From Halosimplex salinum (GTDB taxonomy: Archaea > Halobacteriota > Halobacteria > Halobacteriales > Haloarculaceae): a stretch of 64,000 nt of DNA. The position numbers and the translations under genes were made by a program. The notes under the pieces are model-generated. The model saw nothing but the letters and a program-made list of their open reading frames with translations. It searched no databases and had not been told where the DNA came from. The stretch is from the NCBI RefSeq assembly GCF_003730195.1, contig NZ_QWGG01000006.1, forward strand, positions 186,001-250,000, written 5' to 3'. This document shows, one piece after another, positions 46,985 through 59,567 of the stretch. Position 1 is the stretch's first letter. Every line of letters begins with the position of its first letter.

Positions 46985-48175
46985 ATGAGCATCGACACTG
47001 CGGTGGTCCTCGCGGCCGGTGAGGGGACGCGGCTGCGTCCGCTGACCCGCAACCGGCCCAAGCCGATGTTGCCGGCGGCCAACCGGCCCATCATGGAGTA
47101 CGTCTTCGACGCGCTCGTCGCGGCCGACGTGCGACGGATCGTGGTCGTCGTCGGCTACAAGCGCGACCGCGTCCAGGACCACTTCGGTCCGACCTACGAC
47201 GGCGTCGACCTGAAGTACGTCACCCAGCACAAGCAACTCGGCAGCGGCCACGCCCTCCTCCAGGCCCGTCACGCCGTCGACGGGCCGGCGCTCGTCGTCA
47301 ACGGCGACCGCGTCATCGACGCCAACATCGTCCGCGACGTCTGTGACGAGTTCGAGCGCAGCGGCGAACCCACGATGGCCGTCCTCGAACGGCCCGAGAC
47401 GAGCCAGTACGGCGCCGTCGTCCTCCACGAGGGCGACGTGTCCCAGCTCGTCGAGAAACCCGACACCGACGAGTACCGACTGATCAACGCCGGCGTCTAC
47501 GCCTTCGAGCCCTCTATCTTCGCCGCGATCGACGACACCGAGCGCGCCGACGGGGAACTCGCGCTCACCGACACCATCGGCGACCTGATGGACGCGGGGC
47601 GGGTGCGAGGGGTTCGGACCGAGGGGATGTGGGTCGACGCGACCTACCCCTGGGACCTGCTGACCGTGGCCGACGAGGTGCTCGCCCGCGGCCACGTCGA
47701 CGAACCCCAGCGCGAGGGCCAGGTCTGGGTCGACCCCGCCGCGAACGTCCACGAGACGGCAATCTTACAGGGCCCGGTCGTCGTCGGCCCCGACTGCGAG
47801 GTCGGGCCCGGTGCGGTCGTCGGCGCGAACACGGCGCTCGGCCAGAACGTCACCGTCGGCGCGAACGCGACGGTGCGGAACTCGGTGCTCGACACCGACA
47901 CGCGAGTCGAGTCCGGGTCGACGCTCATCGACGCCGTCACCGGGCAGGACGTGACCCTCGGCGCGGGGACGGTCGTTCCGGGTGGTCCGGCCGACGTGCG
48001 CATCGGCCAGACAGTGTTCGAGGACCGACGCCTCGGCGCGGTCGTCGCCGACCGCGTCGTCGCCGAGGGCGACGCGAGTTTCTCGCCCGGGACGCTCGTC
48101 GGCCCCGGCGCCCACATCGGGACGAGCGTCCGCGCGAGCGGCACCGTCGTCGGCGGCGCGGAGGTGGTTCGATGA
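46985..48175 (+). CDS. GlmU-like bifunctional sugar-1-phosphate nucleotidylyltransferase/acetyltransferase
   Basis: A 396-residue two-domain enzyme that should make UDP-GlcNAc (or a related sugar nucleotide) from glucosamine-1-phosphate. The N-terminal domain has VLAAGEGTRLRPLTRNRPKPM (about 8-28) and the metal Asp in VNGDR. The C-terminal left-handed beta helix has hexapeptide repeats (VVGPDCEVGPGAVVGAN and more, about 250-350). It ends with ATG(A) overlap into a 22-codon ORF and then glmS, so it is coupled to amino-sugar production. Other sugars (glucose/mannose-1-P) cannot be excluded. Confidence 0.9.
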   Translation: MSIDTAVVLAAGEGTRLRPLTRNRPKPMLPAANRPIMEYVFDALVAADVRRIVVVVGYKRDRVQDHFGPTYDGVDLKYVTQHKQLGSGHALLQARHAVDGPALVVNGDRVIDANIVRDVCDEFERSGEPTMAVLERPETSQYGAVVLHEGDVSQLVEKPDTDEYRLINAGVYAFEPSIFAAIDDTERADGELALTDTIGDLMDAGRVRGVRTEGMWVDATYPWDLLTVADEVLARGHVDEPQREGQVWVDPAANVHETAILQGPVVVGPDCEVGPGAVVGANTALGQNVTVGANATVRNSVLDTDTRVESGSTLIDAVTGQDVTLGAGTVVPGGPADVRIGQTVFEDRRLGAVVADRVVAEGDASFSPGTLVGPGAHIGTSVRASGTVVGGAEVVR

Positions 48176-50161: not shown

Positions 50162-51949
50162 ATGAGCGAGGAGATCACCACCGAAGAGAAAGTCCGAGCG
50201 CTCTACGGCGTCGCTCGATACCGACCGCTGTTTACTGTCGGCGTCGTCGGGCTGAGCATCTTCGCCGCGATGCTCGAGGGCATCGGGCTCAGCTTTCTAC
50301 TGCCGATCATCGAGCTCGCCCGCGGCGATATCGATCCCGCGACTGCCGACGGAGCGCTCGGGCTGTTCGTGACTGCCTACGAGTTCCTCGGGATCAGCTT
50401 CACGCTCGAGGCCGTCGTCGTCGGCGTTACAGTCGTTATGACGGCCCGATACACGTCGAGCTTCCTCGTCGCGTGGCTCAGGGCCGCACTGAAGACGACG
50501 TACGTCCGTCACCTCCAGGTCGAGGCGTTCGACCACGCGCTCGACGCGCGGGTCGAGTACTTCGACGCGGAAGGATCGGACGACATTCTCAACGCCATCG
50601 TCACACAGGCGACGCTGGCCGGGCGCGTCATCGAACGGGTCGTCCAGTTCATCGAACAGGCGTTTCTGACCGCGATGTACGGCGCAGTCGCGCTGTACTT
50701 CGCCCCGCGACTGACACTCGGGTCGGTGCTGCTCCTCGGGATATTCGCACTGCTGTCGCGGACTGTCCTCGAGTCCGGTTACTCCGTCGGTGACCGCGTT
50801 GCCGACGCCAACGAGGAGATCCAGACCGCAGCGCAAGCGGGTACACAGGGGATCAGGGACGTCAAACTGTTCGGACTCGGCGAGGAACTGTTCGAGCGGT
50901 TTCGGACGGCTGCCGACCAGTACACGAACGCACAGATCAGACTCAGCCGAAACGAGGCGGCGCTGAGCAACTTCTACGAACTTGGTGCGGCGGTCATCGT
51001 CTTCCTGTTGCTGTACGTCGCGCTGGCACTGCTGGAGTTGCCCCTCGCCAGTCTCGGCGTCTTCCTGTTCGCGATGTTCCGCCTCGCCCCGCGGGCGAGC
51101 ACGCTGAACAACTACCTCTACAAGATCGAGAGCGACCTTCCACATCTGGTTCGGACACAGCACTTCGTCGAGGAACTTGCCGCACGGGCCGAACCGGACG
51201 GGGCTACCGAACCGGTCCCGGACCCGATAGAACGGATCGCGTTCGAGGACGTCTCGTTTAGCTACGAGAGCGACGACCACACGATTCGGGATCTGACGCT
51301 TTCGGTCGACAGCGGTGAGTTCGTCGCCTTCGTCGGTCCCTCCGGCGCCGGCAAGTCGACGATCGTCTCGCTGCTCGCCGGGCTGTACGAACCCGACGAC
51401 GGGGAGATCACGGCGGACGGGACGCCGATCACCGCGTTCGACCTCCGTGAGTGGCGTGAGAACGTCGCCGTCGTCCGCCAGCAGCCGTTCGTCTTCAACG
51501 ACACGCTCCGGTACAACGTCACCGTCGGTAACCGGGAGGCGAGTCAGGCGGAGATCGAACGTGCGTGTGAGACCGCACAGGTGACCGAATTCCTCGACGG
51601 CCTCCCGAACGGTTACGACACGGTACTCGGCGACGACGGCGTTCGACTGTCCGGCGGACAGCGCCAGCGCATCGCCATCGCGCGAGCGCTGTTGAAAGAC
51701 GCCGACGTACTCGTCCTTGACGAGGCCACTAGCGACCTCGATACGTCCCTGGAGGAAGCGGTTCACGCCGGCATCGAGTCGATGGAGCGCGACTGTTCCA
51801 TGTTCGTGGTCGCTCATCGGCTCTCGACAGTTCGCAACGCCGACCGGATCTACGCGATGGAGGACGGGTCGGTCGTCGAATCCGGGTTCCACACCGCCCT
51901 GTTGGAAGCGGACGGCGTCTACGCGAAACTGTACGGGGCACAGCAATGA
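50162..51949 (+). CDS. ABC exporter (fused TM and ATPase), PglK/MsbA-like flippase
   Basis: A 595-residue half-transporter with about six membrane helices (residues 15-320) and a C-terminal nucleotide-binding domain. Walker A GPSGAGKST is near residue 392-400, the ABC signature LSGGQRQRIA near 497 and Walker B VLVLDEATSD near 517; a Q-loop (RQQPF) and H-loop (VAHRLST) complete it. PglK-type members flip lipid-linked oligosaccharides and fit the glycan locus. TATA-like TTTATATC is at 50091. The gene starts the nonulosonic-acid unit. Confidence 0.9.
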   Translation: MSEEITTEEKVRALYGVARYRPLFTVGVVGLSIFAAMLEGIGLSFLLPIIELARGDIDPATADGALGLFVTAYEFLGISFTLEAVVVGVTVVMTARYTSSFLVAWLRAALKTTYVRHLQVEAFDHALDARVEYFDAEGSDDILNAIVTQATLAGRVIERVVQFIEQAFLTAMYGAVALYFAPRLTLGSVLLLGIFALLSRTVLESGYSVGDRVADANEEIQTAAQAGTQGIRDVKLFGLGEELFERFRTAADQYTNAQIRLSRNEAALSNFYELGAAVIVFLLLYVALALLELPLASLGVFLFAMFRLAPRASTLNNYLYKIESDLPHLVRTQHFVEELAARAEPDGATEPVPDPIERIAFEDVSFSYESDDHTIRDLTLSVDSGEFVAFVGPSGAGKSTIVSLLAGLYEPDDGEITADGTPITAFDLREWRENVAVVRQQPFVFNDTLRYNVTVGNREASQAEIERACETAQVTEFLDGLPNGYDTVLGDDGVRLSGGQRQRIAIARALLKDADVLVLDEATSDLDTSLEEAVHAGIESMERDCSMFVVAHRLSTVRNADRIYAMEDGSVVESGFHTALLEADGVYAKLYGAQQ

Positions 51950-52040: not shown

Positions 52041-53030
52041 ATGAAAGACAACGAACTTCACCTGAACGTACACGGTCTCGACGTCCGTTTTCGAACAACT
52101 TTGAGCGATTTTCGAGCATTCATCGACGAGAACTACGCCCTTTTCGGGTCGTACCGGACAGGGGAAGTCGACGTTTCCGTTCAGTTCGACCCGCAATCGG
52201 GAGCGGACGCACGGGACCGGGCTAAGTCCTTTCGGCAGGTCGGCGACGGGATCCGGTATGGCGATTCCGCGGTTTATTGGGAGAACAACTTCGGTTTCAA
52301 TATCCTCGTAGAGCGGACGACAGACGCGCTACGGGTCCGTGCGTTCCACCGGGAGCTTGCCGAGGACCAGTCGGCTGAGGAGCGGTACAAGAATTTCCAG
52401 CGGTCGATGCGATGGGTCGTTCACTTCCCGGTGTTCACCCTGTTGCAGTACCGGCGGGAATGGAGACTGGTGCACGGCGCCGCGGTAACGGACGGCGATC
52501 GTACGTTCGCGTTCTGTGGGCTGAACAAGATCGGAAAATCGACGCTGGCAACTTACCTCTGTCGGGAGGAGGGGTATTCACTCATCACGGACAACTACCT
52601 CCTGGTCGGCTCGGAGCGAGTCTACGCGTTCCCGGAGGTCGTCCGATTGGATCCGGCGTCGGCGGATCGGTTCGGTCTGGAGGGGATCTGGTCGCATCTT
52701 GTGTATGGAAAAGAGCACGTTTCCCCGACAGCTATCGGAACGGCCTCGGAGGCTGTCCCGGACGCGTTCTTCCTACTGTCCCGAGGGGGCGAAGTCTCAT
52801 CGGCTGAAATCGAACCGCAAACTGCTTGGCAGTCAATGCAAAACCTGCATGCAATGCTCGGAGAGTTCCCACAACACGGCTTCATGTCGGTCTGGCCCGT
52901 CGCCACTGGGGAGACGAGACCGGTTTCTAGCGCGGAGACGATACTATTCGATACGCCGTGGTACTCGCTGAGCTACGACCCCAACTGGGAGTTTCGAGCG
53001 GTCACGGAGGAGGTACACGGATGTATTTAG
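52041..53030 (+). CDS. HPr-kinase-like P-loop protein 1
   Basis: A 329-residue protein. The N-terminal ~120 residues are beta-rich and unassigned. From about 145, the sequence HGAAVTDGDRTFAFCGLNKIGKSTLA carries a complete Walker A (G160-x4-G165-K166-S167), followed by YSLITDNYLLV, where HprK has A-D-D (here T183-D184-N185). It resembles the C-terminal kinase domain of HPr kinase/phosphorylase. Haloarchaeal HPr is an uncertain target; the context suggests action on a sugar, lipid or protein in glycan assembly. It overlaps the second kinase-like gene by 10 nt. AT-richer than its neighbours. Confidence 0.75.
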   Translation: MKDNELHLNVHGLDVRFRTTLSDFRAFIDENYALFGSYRTGEVDVSVQFDPQSGADARDRAKSFRQVGDGIRYGDSAVYWENNFGFNILVERTTDALRVRAFHRELAEDQSAEERYKNFQRSMRWVVHFPVFTLLQYRREWRLVHGAAVTDGDRTFAFCGLNKIGKSTLATYLCREEGYSLITDNYLLVGSERVYAFPEVVRLDPASADRFGLEGIWSHLVYGKEHVSPTAIGTASEAVPDAFFLLSRGGEVSSAEIEPQTAWQSMQNLHAMLGEFPQHGFMSVWPVATGETRPVSSAETILFDTPWYSLSYDPNWEFRAVTEEVHGCI

Positions 53031-54100
53031 ACATCTTCGGAGACGTGGTACTGCGGTTCCATGGGAAGAACACGGACACCGTCCAGCACGTCAGGAAGGA
53101 CTACCAGCCGTTTGAAGTGGACGGGGAGTCGGTCGACCACATCGACATCGACGTCCAGTTCGTCGAGGAGACCTCCAGCGAGGAGGAGAGCGTCCACATC
53201 CGGGACCCGGTCGCCTACGACGGCCAGGGCGTTTTCTTCCATCCCAGCGGGTCGTGGAGCGTCATGCGGATCGATTTCGACGCTATCGGGAACGGGACGT
53301 GCCGAGTCACCTGCGACGTCAACTTCAACCGGTACCTGATGGCGAAACTGGTCGACCACCTCATCCACCTGTCCCTCCTCAAGGAGGGCGCTGCCTTCTG
53401 TCACAGTGCCGCGTTCGAACACGAGGGCGATGTCGTCGTCTGTCCGGCGTGGCGCGACGTTGGGAAGACGAACCTGTTGCTGTCGGTACTGGACGACGGC
53501 GCCGATTACATCGCCGACGACCTGTGTATCGTCCGCCGGGACGGAACCGTCCACTCGCTGCCGAAGCGGCTGAACCTCCTCCACTACAACTTCAAAGAAT
53601 ACCCGCACCTGCTGAACGAGACCTCACAGGAGTTTCAGGGGCTCTGGGACTTCGTCGAGCGCGCACGGTCGGGGGAGTTCGGACTCGACGACGATGAGAT
53701 CGCCACGCTGACGAGTCAGGCCAGGATGCGCGTCTCCCCCTACGAGGCGTTCGATCTCGAACCGAACGTCGAACCCCGTCCGATCGACAGGCTCTGCCTC
53801 CTGCGCCGGGTGAACCCCGACGACTGCCCGGTGACCCACGCGCCTGTCGATGGGCAGGAACTGGCCCACCGGATGTACGCCACGATGGAGTTCGAGATGT
53901 CGTACTTGCTGCTCGGGTACAGGGCACACAAAGCGCAGGTCGGATCCGTGAATGAGTATCTCGAGCGGGCGAAGCAGCGCCACCTTGAGGTGTACGAGGA
54001 GGCGATCGATTCCGTGTCCGACCTCCTCAAATTGAACGTTCCGTCGCAGAACCACGCGAAGGACGTCCAGCGCGAGATCGAGACGCTGATCCGGACATGA
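53021..54100 (+). CDS. HPr-kinase-like P-loop protein 2
   Basis: A 359-residue protein, same two-part arrangement as the gene before. FCHSAAFEHEGDVVVCPAWRDVGKTNLLLS has a P-loop-like stretch at about 141-151, but the first Gly of G-x4-G-K-T is Ala143. DYIADDLCIVRRD (A165-D166-D167) matches the HprK ADD motif. The C-terminal ~150 residues are helical and unassigned. Start ATG at 53021, overlapping the first gene's stop; its last bases (ATGA) overlap the SpsF-like gene, so five genes are coupled. Function unknown; related to HprK by motif only. Confidence 0.72.
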   Translation: MYLDIFGDVVLRFHGKNTDTVQHVRKDYQPFEVDGESVDHIDIDVQFVEETSSEEESVHIRDPVAYDGQGVFFHPSGSWSVMRIDFDAIGNGTCRVTCDVNFNRYLMAKLVDHLIHLSLLKEGAAFCHSAAFEHEGDVVVCPAWRDVGKTNLLLSVLDDGADYIADDLCIVRRDGTVHSLPKRLNLLHYNFKEYPHLLNETSQEFQGLWDFVERARSGEFGLDDDEIATLTSQARMRVSPYEAFDLEPNVEPRPIDRLCLLRRVNPDDCPVTHAPVDGQELAHRMYATMEFEMSYLLLGYRAHKAQVGSVNEYLERAKQRHLEVYEEAIDSVSDLLKLNVPSQNHAKDVQREIETLIRT

Positions 54101-54798
54101 CGGTCGTCGCTCTCATCCCCGCTCGGTTGGACTCGACGCGGTTGCCGCGCAAACAGCTCAGGGAGATCGCGGGACGACCGATGATCGACTACCTCGCGGC
54201 GCGCATGGCGGCGGTCCCCGCGGTCGACGAGGTCGCCGTCGCGACGACGGACCGCCCGATAGACGACGAGTTGGCCTCCTGGGCCGACCGTATGGACGTC
54301 GGGTGCTACCGGGGCGACCTGGCAGACGTGCTCGGCCGGCTGACCGCCGCCGCAGACGCGTTCGACGCCGACGTCGTCGTCCGCGCGAACGGGGACAACC
54401 CCCTCTTGGCGCCGGAGGTGACTGCGGCGGGACTGGGAGCGTTGAAACGAGCCGGGGACGAGTACGTGACTGGCAAGAACATGTTTACCGGGATCCCGGT
54501 CGGGCTCGGGCCGGGAATCATCGAGACGGACACGCTCGTGCGACTCAGCGAAGTCGCGACCGCCCCGTACCACCGGGAGCACGTGACGACGTACGTGTTT
54601 GAGAACCCAGACGAGTTCGACTGGTCGCCGATCCCGGTCGAGAGCGGCTGGATCGCACGGGAGCTCAGTCTGACGGTCGATACCGCCGAACAGTTCGAGT
54701 ACGCCGCGGAAACCGTCGATCGGCTCCCCGGCGGCCAGTCGGGCGAGTGGTCGGTGAAAGATATAATTGCGGCCGCCGAAGAAGTGGATGGTACGTGA
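54097..54798 (+). CDS. SpsF-like cytidylyltransferase/glycosyltransferase-fold protein (CMP-nonulosonate synthetase candidate)
   Basis: A 233-residue nucleotidyltransferase of the SpsF/CMP-KDO synthetase-like group. IPARLDSTRLPRKQL (residues 7-21) is the CTP-binding loop. RANGDNPLL (about 97-105) supplies the metal Asp. It probably activates a nonulosonic acid with CMP, or acts as SpsF does in Bacillus spore coat synthesis. It overlaps the kinase-like gene by 4 nt and is followed, after 2 nt, by the NeuB-like synthase. Confidence 0.82.
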   Translation: MTVVALIPARLDSTRLPRKQLREIAGRPMIDYLAARMAAVPAVDEVAVATTDRPIDDELASWADRMDVGCYRGDLADVLGRLTAAADAFDADVVVRANGDNPLLAPEVTAAGLGALKRAGDEYVTGKNMFTGIPVGLGPGIIETDTLVRLSEVATAPYHREHVTTYVFENPDEFDWSPIPVESGWIARELSLTVDTAEQFEYAAETVDRLPGGQSGEWSVKDIIAAAEEVDGT

Positions 54799-54800
54799 CC

Positions 54801-55826
54801 ATGCGAGACCACTTCTCCATCGGGGGGCGGACGATCGGCCCCGACCAGCCGCCATTCGTTGTTGCAGAGGTCGGAATGAACCACAACGGCGATCTAGACC
54901 TGGCGCGGGACCACGTCGAAGCGGCGGCCGACGCGGGCGCGGACGCCGTCAAGTTCCAGACGTACGAAACTGACGCCTATTTCTCCGACGAGTACGGGGA
55001 CCTGGACACCCGCCGGGAGTACGAACTGCGACCGGAGTGGCACCGGGAGCTCAAAACGCTGGCGGCGGAGCACAGTCTCGCGTTCCTCTCGACCCCGTTC
55101 GACCGCCGGAGCGTCGAACTCCTCGACGACCTGGAGGTCCCCTGTTACAAGATCGCGTCGTTCGACGTCACGAACCACCAGCTGATCAGGCAGATCGCGG
55201 AGAAAGGCGAACCGATCATCCTCTCCACGGGGTACTCGACCCACAGTGAAATCGCCGAGGCCGTCGAGGTCGTACTGTCGACCGGAAACGACCGACTCGC
55301 ACTGCTACACTGCATCTCGTCGTACCCGACGCCCCTCGAATGGATGAACGTCAGTGCCGTTGAGACGCTCGCCGACGCGTTCGGGACCCCGGTCGGGCTC
55401 TCGGACCACACGCACGGTTCCCACACGGCGGCGGTACTGGCCACGGCGATGGGCGCAAGCGTGATAGAGAAACACTTCACCATCGACAACGACCTGCCCG
55501 GCTACGACCACGCGATGAGCGAGACCCCCGAGACATTCTCCAAGCTGACGACGGAGGTCAGAAACGCACACGAAGCGCTCGGGGACGGCGACCTCTCGCC
55601 ACTGCCGGAAGAGACCGACAGCCTCCCGGAGGCGCGACGGACGCTCCACTGGCGGGGCTCCTACGAGGCCGGGACGGAGATCGCCCCGGAGATGTTCCTA
55701 CCGCTCCGACCGGGCGGGGGACTGCCGGTCAAGCGGATTGACGAACTCGCTGGCCGCCGGCTCGGGAAGTCGGTCGAGGGGCGAGAACGGGTTCAACTAG
55801 GCCAGATCGACTGGGACGAGGACTGA
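54801..55826 (+). CDS. NeuB/SpsE-family nonulosonic acid synthase
   Basis: Condenses phosphoenolpyruvate with an N-acyl amino sugar to a nine-carbon sialic-acid-like sugar. 341 residues: a TIM-barrel NeuB domain (VGMNHNGDLDLARDHV about 25-39; KFQTYETD; STPFDRRSV; YKIAS; LHCISSYPTP; GLSDHT; IEKHFTIDND) and a C-terminal SAF antifreeze-like domain (about 280-341, LYWRGS-type segment GLPVKRIDELAGRRLG). The start ATG is at 54801, two bases after the SpsF-like stop. It is part of the coupled unit ending with a PseG-like gene. Confidence 0.93.
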   Translation: MRDHFSIGGRTIGPDQPPFVVAEVGMNHNGDLDLARDHVEAAADAGADAVKFQTYETDAYFSDEYGDLDTRREYELRPEWHRELKTLAAEHSLAFLSTPFDRRSVELLDDLEVPCYKIASFDVTNHQLIRQIAEKGEPIILSTGYSTHSEIAEAVEVVLSTGNDRLALLHCISSYPTPLEWMNVSAVETLADAFGTPVGLSDHTHGSHTAAVLATAMGASVIEKHFTIDNDLPGYDHAMSETPETFSKLTTEVRNAHEALGDGDLSPLPEETDSLPEARRTLHWRGSYEAGTEIAPEMFLPLRPGGGLPVKRIDELAGRRLGKSVEGRERVQLGQIDWDED

Positions 55827-55831
55827 CAGAG

Positions 55832-56878
55832 ATGCGGTGGCTCTTCCGGTGTAACGTCGCGAGCGAGCGCTTCGCCGACGACGACGCGGATGTACAGGGG
55901 ATCGGCCACGCGATGCGTTGTCTCTCAGTGGCCAGGGCGGCGGAGGCAGCGGGCGACGTGGCGATGTTCACCATCGAGGGCGCGGACGACATCGTCCCGT
56001 TCCTTGAGAAGACCGGTCTCGACTTCCGTCTGAACCGGGACCATTTCGACGTCGCGCAGAGGTACGACCCCGACGTCGTGGTCACCGACGTCAACTACTG
56101 CGATAGGCGGGCGGTCGAGCGGTTCCGGGACATCGCGCCAGTCGTCAACTTGGCGCCCCGCGGCGAAGTGAAGTATTACGCCGACCTCACGTTCACGAGC
56201 GAGGCGATCCGGGACGTTCCGGAGCCGGACGACGCGATGTTCGATCGCTGGTACAGCGGCCCTGAATACACAATTATCAGCGACGATTTCGTCAGACGAC
56301 GGGCGGTGATGGACGGGGCGGATCCGCCGGTCGAACGCGGAAAAGTCGTGATCAACATGGGCGGGGTCGACGAGTCCGACCGGACGGGCAAGGTCCTGGA
56401 GCTGCTCTCAGCGGACCTCGTCGAGCGGCTCGACCTTACGATCACCGCCGGTCCGTTCAATCCGAACGCGGACGCGCTCCGGGCCCGCTGCGACGAACTC
56501 GGCGGTGCCGTCGAGTTCCTCCACGCACCGGACGACCTCGCCGCGGTTCTGTCCGGTTCGGAGTTCGCCGTCCTCGGGGCCGGCATCTCGACATACGAGG
56601 CGCTCGCGATCGGCGTACCGAGTCTGAACGTCGGTCTCTCGTCGTTCCACGACGAGCGGGGGGCCGTACTCGAATCCGAGGACCTCGGTGTGTACCTCGG
56701 GAACGTCGAGGACCTGACAGCCGACAGGGTCAACGATACGATCGGGTCGCTACTCGGCGGCGACGACCGCCTCGACCGGATCCGGTCGAAGGGGTTCCAC
56801 GCCGTCGACGGGTCGGCGAGCGAACAGATCCTCTCGCGCGTCCGCACGTACCTGAACGACGGGTCGTCGCGCGAATGA
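55832..56878 (+). CDS. PseG/SpsG-family protein (UDP-sugar hydrolase or GT-B transferase)
   Basis: A 348-residue GT-B-fold protein. The N-terminal VQGIGHAMRCLSVARAAEAAG (about 21-40) carries the G-x-G-H-x2-R motif of PseG, which removes UDP from altrose-type sugars before the synthase acts. The C-terminal half has GAGISTYEALAIGVPSLNVGL, the nucleotide-binding loop. It matches SpsG of the spsE-spsF-spsG set. It is 5 nt after the NeuB-like gene. Confidence 0.85.
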   Translation: MRWLFRCNVASERFADDDADVQGIGHAMRCLSVARAAEAAGDVAMFTIEGADDIVPFLEKTGLDFRLNRDHFDVAQRYDPDVVVTDVNYCDRRAVERFRDIAPVVNLAPRGEVKYYADLTFTSEAIRDVPEPDDAMFDRWYSGPEYTIISDDFVRRRAVMDGADPPVERGKVVINMGGVDESDRTGKVLELLSADLVERLDLTITAGPFNPNADALRARCDELGGAVEFLHAPDDLAAVLSGSEFAVLGAGISTYEALAIGVPSLNVGLSSFHDERGAVLESEDLGVYLGNVEDLTADRVNDTIGSLLGGDDRLDRIRSKGFHAVDGSASEQILSRVRTYLNDGSSRE

Positions 56879-57018
56879 GGACCGCCCACTACCGACCGAC
56901 AACGGTCCCACGCGCCGTCCACTCGGATCGCGGCCCCGTACCCACAGACAACTACAATACGCTGGCCGACATCCTCACCGAGAACTTCGAATGTACGGGA
57001 CGATCAAGGGCACGATAG
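56875..57018 (+). other. 47-codon open frame between PseG-like and acyltransferase genes
   Basis: ATG at 56875 overlaps the PseG-like stop (ATGA), as for real coupled genes. The peptide contains HSDRGPVPTDNYNTLADIL and TENFECTG, which looks protein-like, but the frame stops 27 nt inside the acyltransferase gene in another frame. It may be a gene remnant or a small coupled ORF. Confidence 0.35.
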
Positions 57019-57749
57019 CGACGGTCGCTTCTGCGACCCGGTATCCGGGCGTCCTCTGTTGGGCGATAAACCGGAGCCCCGTCGCGACGACGATCCGCCG
57101 CGGATCCGGCGTTTCGATCGGGCGAAGCTGTACCATTCGGGGGACCGTGTCACTGGGGAACCGTTCCAGGGTCGGCCACGACTGCACGCTCCGGGGCAAA
57201 ATCGAGACGGGGCCGCACGTCACCGTGGGCGACGACGCGCTACTCAGAGGGGACGTGACCGTCGGACGGCGTTCAAACCTCGTCGAGAACAACGACTTGG
57301 TCGGCGAGATCTCGATCGGGAACTTCTGTGCCATCGCTCCCGACGTTCGCTGCCAGGCCAAAGACCACGTCACGAACAAGGCCGGACTGCAAACGGACTT
57401 CTATCGCGACCTTCTAGATGCCGAACTCGGCTACACCGCCGACGGCCCCATCCGGATCGGCAACGACGTGTGGATCGGCGCTCGGTCGATCGTTTTATCG
57501 GGGGTCACGATCGGCGACGGTGCCATCGTGGCCGGTGGATCGGTCGTTACGAATGACGTGGAGCCGTACTCCTTGGTCGCAGGTGTCCCGGCGGAACACA
57601 AGCGCTGGCGGTTCCCGGAGCGGATCCGCGAGGAACTCCTTGACATCGAGTGGTGGACGTGGAGCGACGAGCGGATCCGGGCCAACGAGGAGTTCTTCGT
57701 GAGTGAGCTTGACGACCGGGAGTCTGTCCGCGAACTGATCGTGGAGTGA
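56991..57749 (+). CDS. left-handed beta-helix (hexapeptide) acyltransferase
   Basis: A 252-residue acyltransferase of the CatB/WbbJ group. Isoleucine-patch hexapeptide repeats run from about residue 45 to 120 (VSLGNRSRVGHDCTLRG, VTVGDDALLRG, ISIGNFCAIAP). An inserted loop with FYRDLLDAELGYT precedes the second helix part (GNDVWIGARSIVLSGVTIGDGAIVAGGSVV). It would N- or O-acetylate a sugar, for instance the amino sugar for the NeuB-like synthase. It starts with the ATG at 56991, 112 nt after the PseG-like gene. Confidence 0.88.
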   Translation: MYGTIKGTIATVASATRYPGVLCWAINRSPVATTIRRGSGVSIGRSCTIRGTVSLGNRSRVGHDCTLRGKIETGPHVTVGDDALLRGDVTVGRRSNLVENNDLVGEISIGNFCAIAPDVRCQAKDHVTNKAGLQTDFYRDLLDAELGYTADGPIRIGNDVWIGARSIVLSGVTIGDGAIVAGGSVVTNDVEPYSLVAGVPAEHKRWRFPERIREELLDIEWWTWSDERIRANEEFFVSELDDRESVRELIVE

Positions 57750-57753
57750 CCGT

Positions 57754-59352
57754 TCACTCCGGAGTGTGGACTGGTCCGTCGGCGAGGACCCCCTCCACGG
57801 CGGTGTCGAAGTTGACGTTTCCAGGCTCGATATCGTCGTGCGATACCGGCAGCCAACGCGTCTGGTTGTCGACCGTCTCGTAGAAGGGGAAGTCGACGTG
57901 CGTGCGAACCATGAACATGTAGGCGTAGCGCTTGGCGGTCCTGCGCATCTCCTCGGTCAGTTCGAGTTCGTCAAGTCGTGAGAGCGTGTCCTCGTACTCC
58001 GACTTCGTCTCAGGGTCGTAGGTGAACCCGGCCCCGCGGTAATGGGTCTCGCCGCCGACGACGACCGGGTCGCCGAAGTACGGCATCTCCATGCCGACGG
58101 TCGAGTTGTACACGATCCCGACGTCGAGCTGGTCGATGAGTCGGTAGGTGTCGACCTCGGTCTCGGGGGGGAGGAGGACGACGTTGCCGGGCAGTGATCC
58201 GTACTGATCAGTTATCCACTCCGATACCCGCTCGTTCGTCCGTTTCATCGCCTCGACGGGGTGGGTCTTGATGACCAACTGCACGTCCCCGTGGTCCGCG
58301 ATCGTCTCGATGGTCGCCGAGATCCACTCGAAGGGATCATGGAACGCGCCGCCGGTCGCCGTGAGCGAGGCGTCCCAGATGAGGTTAGTGAACATCCCGG
58401 CCGTCACCTCGTAGTCGGCGCTCGAATCCAGCGCCTCGTCGGCCTCGCCGACCACGTCGAACCGGGTCGTCTCCCCCTCACGACGCCCCTCCATGATCTC
58501 GTCGATCCGCGCCTCCTGCGAACCACTCAGCGGCTCGGAGACCGCCGCTTCGATCGTCGCTTCGTCGGAGAACTGGTGCATCGGCGAACGGTTCTTAGCG
58601 TTGCCGAACATCACCGTCCGGTCGCGGTAGCCGCTCGCGTACGTCATCGAGGCGATCCCCGCTTCCGCGGCGACGGCCGCGAAGAGCCCGCCGTAGACGT
58701 ACGGGGCGTGGTTGACTAAGGTCGCGTCGACATCGTACTCCGCTATTGCTGCGTATCCGGCGTCAACGATGTCCATCGCGGTGTCGAGGAACCTGAGGTA
58801 CGTCTCCCGGTCCCCGGAGTCGTCGAGATCGAAGTGGTACCGTCGCAGGAACCGACGGGCCGACGCTTCCGCGTAGTCGGAGACGCGGATCCCGCGGTAC
58901 TCAAGGGAACGAGGGTCTGACAGCGCATACGGGTCAGGCCTCGACTCCCCACCTGCGAGGGCCGAGAGCGGGACGGGATCCAGGCCGAACGCACTGAACA
59001 GGTTCTCCCCGTGGTGGTGACAGAGGGCGCACGCACTCAGATCGTCGTGCTGTTCCCGGGCGTGACAGATAGCCACGTCGTTGTCACATAGCGTCACTAT
59101 CGGCTCGTACCCGCGGCACCGAAACGCATGAGCCATGATACAGTACTTGAAGACCCCCGATGCGTCCCGACCCTGGACGACCGGCAGGAGGACACGCCCA
59201 TCCACCTCCGAATCGGGCAGTTCGTACGAGCGGATGCGTTCGTCGACGGCGAAGTCGTATCTGTCGCTGTTCGCAAAGTACGCGTCGAGAAGGTGATCCT
59301 CGACGTTCAGTCGATACCCGAGTCGGAGGATCTCCCGCTTCAGACCGGACAT
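57754..59352 (-). CDS. GT-B-like surface-polysaccharide (capsule/CDP-glycerol-type) transferase
   Basis: A 532-residue protein that I place in the capsule polysaccharide/Kdo-transferase-like GT-B group, mainly on its C-terminal half: VIKTHPVEAMKRTNERVSEW, LIDQLDVGIVYNSTVGMEMPY and DPVVVGGETHYRGAGFTYDP are typical donor-binding segments. The N-terminal half contains a CHAREQ...CALCHHHGENLF cysteine/histidine cluster (about 95-130) that may bind a metal. Start ATG at 59352, set by a TATA box 29 nt upstream. It faces the acyltransferase gene, 4 nt away. Confidence 0.72.
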   Translation of the reverse strand: MSGLKREILRLGYRLNVEDHLLDAYFANSDRYDFAVDERIRSYELPDSEVDGRVLLPVVQGRDASGVFKYCIMAHAFRCRGYEPIVTLCDNDVAICHAREQHDDLSACALCHHHGENLFSAFGLDPVPLSALAGGESRPDPYALSDPRSLEYRGIRVSDYAEASARRFLRRYHFDLDDSGDRETYLRFLDTAMDIVDAGYAAIAEYDVDATLVNHAPYVYGGLFAAVAAEAGIASMTYASGYRDRTVMFGNAKNRSPMHQFSDEATIEAAVSEPLSGSQEARIDEIMEGRREGETTRFDVVGEADEALDSSADYEVTAGMFTNLIWDASLTATGGAFHDPFEWISATIETIADHGDVQLVIKTHPVEAMKRTNERVSEWITDQYGSLPGNVVLLPPETEVDTYRLIDQLDVGIVYNSTVGMEMPYFGDPVVVGGETHYRGAGFTYDPETKSEYEDTLSRLDELELTEEMRRTAKRYAYMFMVRTHVDFPFYETVDNQTRWLPVSHDDIEPGNVNFDTAVEGVLADGPVHTPE

Positions 59353-59375
59353 GCGATTCAGTACCGGCGCTGACG

Positions 59376-59385
59376 CGTTTATATC
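59376..59385 (-). promoter_or_regulatory. TATA box of the capsule-type transferase gene
   Basis: GATATAAACG on the minus strand is centred about 29 nt upstream of the ATG at 59352 and supports that start over the in-frame ATG-like codon at 59394, which lies upstream of the box. Confidence 0.65.
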
Positions 59386-59567
59386 TTCGCCCACCTGGCC
59401 GTGCGGGTCACGCCGATCCGAGGTGTGCGACGAGCGTTCGGCTCGCGATCCGGTGGCGGTACCGACCAGTTCGGCAGTATCGAACTGTCTCAGTCATAGA
59501 GCGACCCGGTATAATCGCCGCCGCGCCACGGCCCCCTTCTGTTGCGAGGCTGACTCCGGGCGGATCA

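Follow-up and report, generated by a model that had tools for sequence, protein, structure and literature searches.

The window, a stretch of 64,000 nucleotides from the haloarchaeon Halosimplex salinum (contig NZ_QWGG01000006.1), carries two consecutive genes for proteins resembling HPr kinase (HprK), here called P1 and P2, within a cluster of nonulosonic acid glycan genes. As a preliminary description of this DNA had stated, the two genes overlap each other, by 10 bases, and P2 in turn overlaps an SpsF-like gene (54097-54798), by 4 bases; these overlaps suggest that P1, P2 and SpsF may be translationally coupled. The genes of this region, in order along the window, are:

46985..48175, + strand: sugar-1-phosphate nucleotidylyltransferase, GlmU-like; 58% identity to a gene near the PAWR-type HprK gene of locus L095
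48240..50030, + strand: GlmS, glutamine-fructose-6-phosphate aminotransferase, assigned from sequence; 68% identity to the GlmS near the L095 HprK gene
50162..51949, + strand: ABC exporter of 595 aa; its closest paralogue within the genome is the ABC of a lasso cluster on contig C27 (52%)
52041..53030, + strand: P1, divergent HprK-like protein, 329 aa; His145, GLNKIGKS at 160-167, Asp184-Asn185
53021..54100, + strand: P2, candidate kinase of the HprK/PEPCK fold, 359 aa; His128, AWRDVGKT at 143-150, Asp166-Asp167
54097..54798, + strand: SpsF/NeuA-like cytidylyltransferase (CTP_transf_3)
54801..55826, + strand: NeuB-type nonulosonic acid synthase; an earlier GTG start at 54747 is possible
55832..56878, + strand: SpsG/PseG-like protein; weak TIGR03590 match, below cut-off
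56991..57749, + strand: left-handed beta-helix (hexapeptide) acyltransferase
57754..59394, - strand: Capsule_synth (KpsS-like) glycosyltransferase-type protein

The first of these genes is one that we take to be GlmU-like from its sequence, and the NeuB gene was the sole NeuB in a search of the genome itself. A legionaminic acid cluster is known in the haloarchaeon Halorubrum sp. PV6, where a kinase is not mentioned (PMC6137143). Within 6 kb of P1 or P2 we found no homologues of Asn synthase (AsnSyn), PqqD or NTP_transf_5, and within 6 kb of P2 no genes for a dockerin phosphoesterase or a cohesin protein; no lasso precursor gene was seen in the window, in a non-exhaustive search of short precursor ORFs.

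Both proteins had been proposed to be relatives of HprK, a kinship that is remote, yet beyond chance. The Pfam model of the C-terminal HprK domain (PF07475) matched neither of them at E values up to 1, and PDB sequence searches with P1 and P2 gave nothing usable, whereas the NCBIfam models HprK_rel_B and HprK_rel_A matched both weakly over the P-loop region (E 4e-4 to 0.011), with scores of 15-20 bits vs a curated cut-off of 200. GLNKIGKS in P1 and AWRDVGKT in P2 both conform to the Walker A pattern (G/A)xxxxGK(S/T). The predicted model of P2 (pLDDT 72.7) aligns with ATP-dependent PEP carboxykinase (PEPCK) over 285 residues (Z 16.9) and also matches HprK structures in Foldseek, and one fold group is common to HprK and PEPCK (PMC7758060), a superfamily in which P2 can safely be placed and to which P1 probably belongs. 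The AlphaFold model of P1 (pLDDT 47.7) is in itself too poor to interpret, although its few good Foldseek matches are again to PEPCK, with HprK next. The best relatives of P1 (E 2e-6) are about 30-34% identical to it over the P-loop region, and its 177 bits against a profile of haloarchaeal HprK-like proteins are a score by construction, P1 itself being in the profile. A search of 291 haloarchaeal genomes turned up relatives of P2 in 20 others (best E 6e-23).

The active-site residues are as they had been described, P1 having H145, an intact Walker A (G160-LNKI-G165-K166-S167) and D184-N185, and P2 having H128, A143-WRDV-G148-K149-T150 and D166-D167; we tabulated the catalytic positions in 69 HprK-like proteins from haloarchaeal searches, both window proteins included. 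In HprK, Asp179 acts as proton acceptor/donor and the Walker A motif reads (G/A)xxxxGK(S/T) (PMC9399212), and the set H-K-D-D is essential in lasso kinases (PMC9266682). By alignment, the equivalents of HprK His140 and Asp179 are H128 and D167 in P2, and that of Asp179 in P1 is N185 rather than an Asp, so that P1 carries H-K-D-N. Of the two deviations that had been read as complementary, Asn185 of P1 is thus a real change, whereas Ala143 of P2 is a trait conserved in its family: the first Walker A position is Ala in each of the 23 P2 relatives that make up the haloarchaeal PAWRxxGKTN (PAWR) family, and the HprK pattern allows it. Ala143 was therefore rejected as a lesion, and the catalytic set of P2 is complete. 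The invariant columns of this family in P2 include P142, A143, W144, R145, G148, K149, T150, N151, D166 and D167. Judged by these residues, P2 looks fully competent and P1 alone impaired. The change of the catalytic base to Asn is rare, being found among the 69 haloarchaeal sequences in P1 and at loci L054 and L097, and also in an alpha protein (L127) described below. The proteins at L054 (9293-10336) and L097 (9761-10954), in which the Asp-Asn type is retained in two genera, have Ser at the first Walker position and are both encoded in sulfatase/glycosyltransferase clusters.

Haloarchaeal HprK-like genes occur in three settings: lasso-like clusters (31 loci) containing Asn synthase, PqqD or NTP_transf_5; loci (19, with examples Pfam-checked) in which a PAWR gene adjoins one gene for a dockerin-bearing calcineurin-like phosphoesterase and another for a cohesin-domain protein; and the remaining 21 loci, 9 of which have two or more homologues of glycan genes within 6 kb, a rough count like those that follow. 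Such glycan neighbours are also present at 9 of the 31 lasso-like and 6 of the 19 phosphoesterase/cohesin loci, and at none of 40 control genes from the window's initial 38 kb, a control that is small and drawn from one place. Neighbours were labelled by BLAST matches with E below 1e-4, using window or locus proteins as queries, and genes in the other genomes were called by a simple prediction of our own. At L095, genes for GlmU, GlmS and a flippase lie upstream of a PAWR-type HprK gene, an arrangement that resembles the one in the window. Most relatives of P2 are single and stand beside the dockerin phosphoesterase and cohesin genes rather than NeuB, and no second pair of neighbouring P1 and P2 genes was found in 391 haloarchaeal genomes.

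The trio of a PAWR-type HprK-like protein, a Tat-type secreted calcineurin-like phosphoesterase with dockerin (sometimes also with CBM96) and a cohesin-domain membrane protein recurs at L036-L045, L047-L049, L089-L092, L094 and L112. Its composition suggests a cytoplasmic kinase and a cell-surface phosphatase as partners, and we found no description of such a trio in the literature. Lasso-like clusters (NTP_transf_5, ABC, HprK-like kinase, Asn synthase, PqqD) are likewise common in haloarchaea (L063, L058-L062, L085-L088, L098-L111), with two or three kinases at L085-L087, and their combination of kinase and nucleotidyltransferase resembles the tailoring of pseudomycoidin.

As to the origin of the two proteins, P2 stands beside the PAWR family in two trees (support 98/89 and 80/85), as an outlying member with identities of 20-28%. 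P1 is placed on a long branch beside the lasso-type kinases in one tree (95/81), and without firm support in the other. Forcing P1 and P2 into one clade was mildly rejected (AU p 0.042), which together with the separate tree positions disfavours a recent tandem duplication; by these phylogenetic analyses, P1 and P2 come from different HprK-like lineages. An all-species scan with the PAWR family returned 13 loci, every one haloarchaeal. No close homologue of P1 was found in 146 genomes of its taxonomic family, and nothing was found for P1 in viral contigs. In plasmids, tblastn returned a PAWR relative of P2 in Halobaculum and otherwise weak P-loop matches, to HprK_rel_B proteins in Tritonibacter, Streptomyces and Amycolatopsis. 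On a Streptomyces plasmid (L081, NZ_CP107915.1, around 164020-165153), an HprK-like hypothetical protein has as neighbours a nucleotidyltransferase, a ribulose-phosphate epimerase, HAD phosphatases and an inositol monophosphatase, in what looks like a sugar-nucleotide pathway.

Contig C27 of the same genome carries a lasso-like cluster in which an ABC gene is followed by an HprK-like gene (L063), and the window ABC matches the ABC of that cluster with 613 bits, the next match in the genome scoring 235 bits. This own-genome search is cleaner than our other ABC comparison, which is biased, covering HprK-centred loci only. From the tree placement of P1 and the likeness of the two ABC proteins, we infer that the glycan cluster acquired an exporter-kinase pair of lasso type, which came to lie upstream of its PAWR-type kinase.

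With such different origins, P1 and P2 could be independent enzymes with different substrates, P1 serving the ABC exporter in the manner of a lasso cluster and P2 sugar chemistry, and their overlap would then be ordinary operon packing. Their separate lineages, with a single clade disfavoured at the AU p value given above, would agree with this, as would the adjacency of ABC and HprK genes that is usual in lasso-like clusters and the fact that most P2 relatives act alone. We nevertheless consider it somewhat unlikely: P1 is without the catalytic-base Asp, the window has no PqqD, Asn-synthase or NTP_transf_5 gene near P1, and tandem HprK-like pairs recur in glycan clusters. A second alternative is that the glycan cluster took in a lasso-type exporter-kinase module of which P1 is now a decaying remnant, and that P2 and the ABC exporter alone matter; it has to be set against an open frame of 329 codons in which His, Lys and the first Asp are retained, an unbroken 10-base overlap with P2, and the retention of the Asp-Asn type in two genera (L054/L097). 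The long branch of P1, its Asp-to-Asn change, its want of a close homologue and its base composition (GC 58.5% and GC3 71%, below the GC3 of 82-86% in ABC, P2 and NeuB) would fit a relic, and we regard this alternative as improbable.

Tandem HprK-like genes were also found in non-haloarchaeal genomes of the phylum, referred to here as methanogen-side and covered by one phylum search and two class searches: there are pairs in G725, G761, G568 and G922 (loci L124, L125, L127 and L129) and a triple in G760 (L121), all in the vicinity of glycosyltransferases and further glycan genes. Some of these pairs have radical SAM/B12 and glycosyltransferase genes on their flanks. The alpha and beta proteins form sister clades (support 97/93 and 100/98), and the Walker A Gly before Lys is lost in all six beta rows (FK or SK vs GK), which retain His, Lys and the acidic pair. 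This lends support to the wider idea of a paired design, since several methanogen-side lineages have tandem pairs of which one member is damaged. Their pairing is not obligatory, since two of the six beta genes (L130 and L131) are without an alpha neighbour; both of these (L130 6592-7668, L131 7114-8196) are beta-type with GMGGAFKT and Asp-Glu, and each adjoins a thymidylate-kinase-like P-loop gene. P1 as a member of the beta clade was rejected by the tree: P1 and P2 both fall outside the alpha and beta clades, and P1 keeps the Walker Gly that is lost in beta.

The pair in G568 (L127) is literally complementary, alpha having an intact P-loop with Asp-Asn and beta GRGGSFKT with Asp-Asp, and it would agree with the model of the preliminary description, a heteromer whose subunits each contribute the active-site part missing in the other. 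The active sites of HprK lie between the subunits of a hexamer (PMC9399212), which also speaks for such a model. For the window proteins we hold it to be very improbable, given that P2 is without any defect, its Ala being a family trait, and that the P1-P2 pair is not conserved.

In a distant archaeon (G619), a single HprK-like gene (L132 9084-10094) lies inside a NeuC-NeuB-NeuA cluster, the label NeuA being given from sequence and position; the KpsS-like protein of the window showed no kinship with the genes of this cluster in phmmer searches. The proposed link between HprK-like proteins and glycan assembly is partly supported: HprK-like proteins tied to surface-glycan genes are supported as a recurring archaeal theme, once within a Neu cluster, but the P1-P2 pair itself is not conserved.

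Bacterial carbon control and lasso peptides are the settings in which kinases of the HprK fold are known. The lasso-peptide tailoring kinases (PadeK, ThcoK and PsmK; HprK_rel_A-like) share with the window proteins the HprK-like family, the H-K-D-D set seen in P2 and a gene beside an ABC exporter, their haloarchaeal counterparts cluster with P1, and the window ABC is of their type; unlike them, the window pair lies in a nonulosonic glycan cluster, P1 has Asp-Asn, and the window is without Asn synthase, PqqD, NTP_transf_5 and any precursor gene seen. HPr kinase/phosphorylase itself (PF07475, TIGR00679), a hexamer that phosphorylates HPr at Ser46, has in common with the pair the Walker A motif, the His and Asp-Asp of P2 and, for P2 and probably for P1, the fold superfamily, but P1 and P2 are without a Pfam match and P1 is without the catalytic base. 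The PAWR family is the tree neighbour of P2 and shares its P-A-W-R-x-x-G-K-T-N motif and Asp-Asp, whereas its identity to P2 is only 20-28% and most of its members adjoin the secreted dockerin phosphoesterase and cohesin gene, as P2 does not. The methanogen-side pairs are likewise tandem HprK-like genes within surface-glycan clusters, one of the two having a damaged active site; in contrast to P1 and P2, which belong to separate lineages and show damage at Asp-Asp, alpha and beta are sisters from one duplication, with damage in the P-loop. Finally, HprK_rel_B of the GAK system (TIGR04355) is a weak P-loop profile match of both P1 and P2, at about 19 bits vs the cut-off of 200, and the ATP-grasp and amphi-Trp neighbours of that system are absent here.

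The reading that we favor, tentatively and at less than even confidence, is that P2 is an active glycan-assembly kinase and P1 its catalytically impaired partner. P2 would be an ATP/GTP-dependent kinase of the HprK/PEPCK fold, phosphorylating a hydroxyl on a component of the nonulosonic acid glycan pathway of this operon, with a peptide or carrier protein, or a glycan or lipid-linked intermediate, as candidate substrates. P1 would be a lasso-type HprK relative that arrived along with the ABC exporter, had its catalytic base changed from Asp to Asn, and may bind nucleotide and aid P2 in its activity, its choice of substrate or its coupling to export. What is observed are the genes and how they overlap, the residues, the family placements and the fold predicted for P2; the kinase activity, a contact between P1 and P2, the substrate and the tie to export are proposed. 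This reading draws on the full H-K-D-D set, conserved Ala143 and PEPCK/HprK-like model of P2, on Asn185 of P1 at the proton-acceptor position, on the gene overlaps, on the lasso-type window ABC together with the place of P1 among lasso kinases, on the recurrence of active-plus-damaged pairs in methanogen-side glycan clusters, and on the HprK-like gene in the NeuC-NeuB-NeuA cluster of G619. It is weakened by the uniqueness of the P1-P2 pair in our searches, the long branch of P1, the P-loop that P1 keeps unlike methanogen-side beta subunits, the beta genes at L130 and L131 without an alpha neighbour, and the PAWR relatives that mostly lie beside phosphoesterase/cohesin genes and not NeuB. Most of the probability that the kinase with an impaired partner leaves over falls to the independent enzymes, the relic P1 and the strict shared-site heteromer. 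In pseudomycoidin, PsmK phosphorylates a Ser to which PsmN then adds a hexose (PMC9266682), one precedent linking HprK-like phosphorylation to sugar transfer, and a phosphate placed by P2 might, speculatively, be an attachment point for a glycan.

In a more general form, which we consider unlikely though worth stating, archaeal two-subunit kinases of the HprK/PEPCK fold, one subunit catalytic and one degenerate, would phosphorylate an intermediate or anchor in surface-glycan assembly, and the design would have arisen more than once, as alpha and beta on the methanogen side and as P1 and P2 here, through a lasso-type kinase recruited beside a PAWR-type one. The literature that we found on HprK-like proteins consists of lasso/RiPP papers alone, and among the top ten matches on the subject in archaea no paper mentions HPr kinase. 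With about 330-360 aa, P1 and P2 are proteins of unremarkable length that could be made and assayed directly. A recurring link of HprK-fold kinases to archaeal surface glycans, through paired genes of which one is consistently damaged, would add to archaeal glycan assembly a phosphorylation step that is undescribed in the literature found, and would offer a natural test case for the pairing of a kinase with a pseudokinase, in a fold that is not related to that of eukaryotic kinases. Together with the window pair, the similar kinase pairs with one damaged partner in surface-sugar clusters of other archaea suggest an undescribed two-part phosphorylation step in the assembly of cell-surface glycans.
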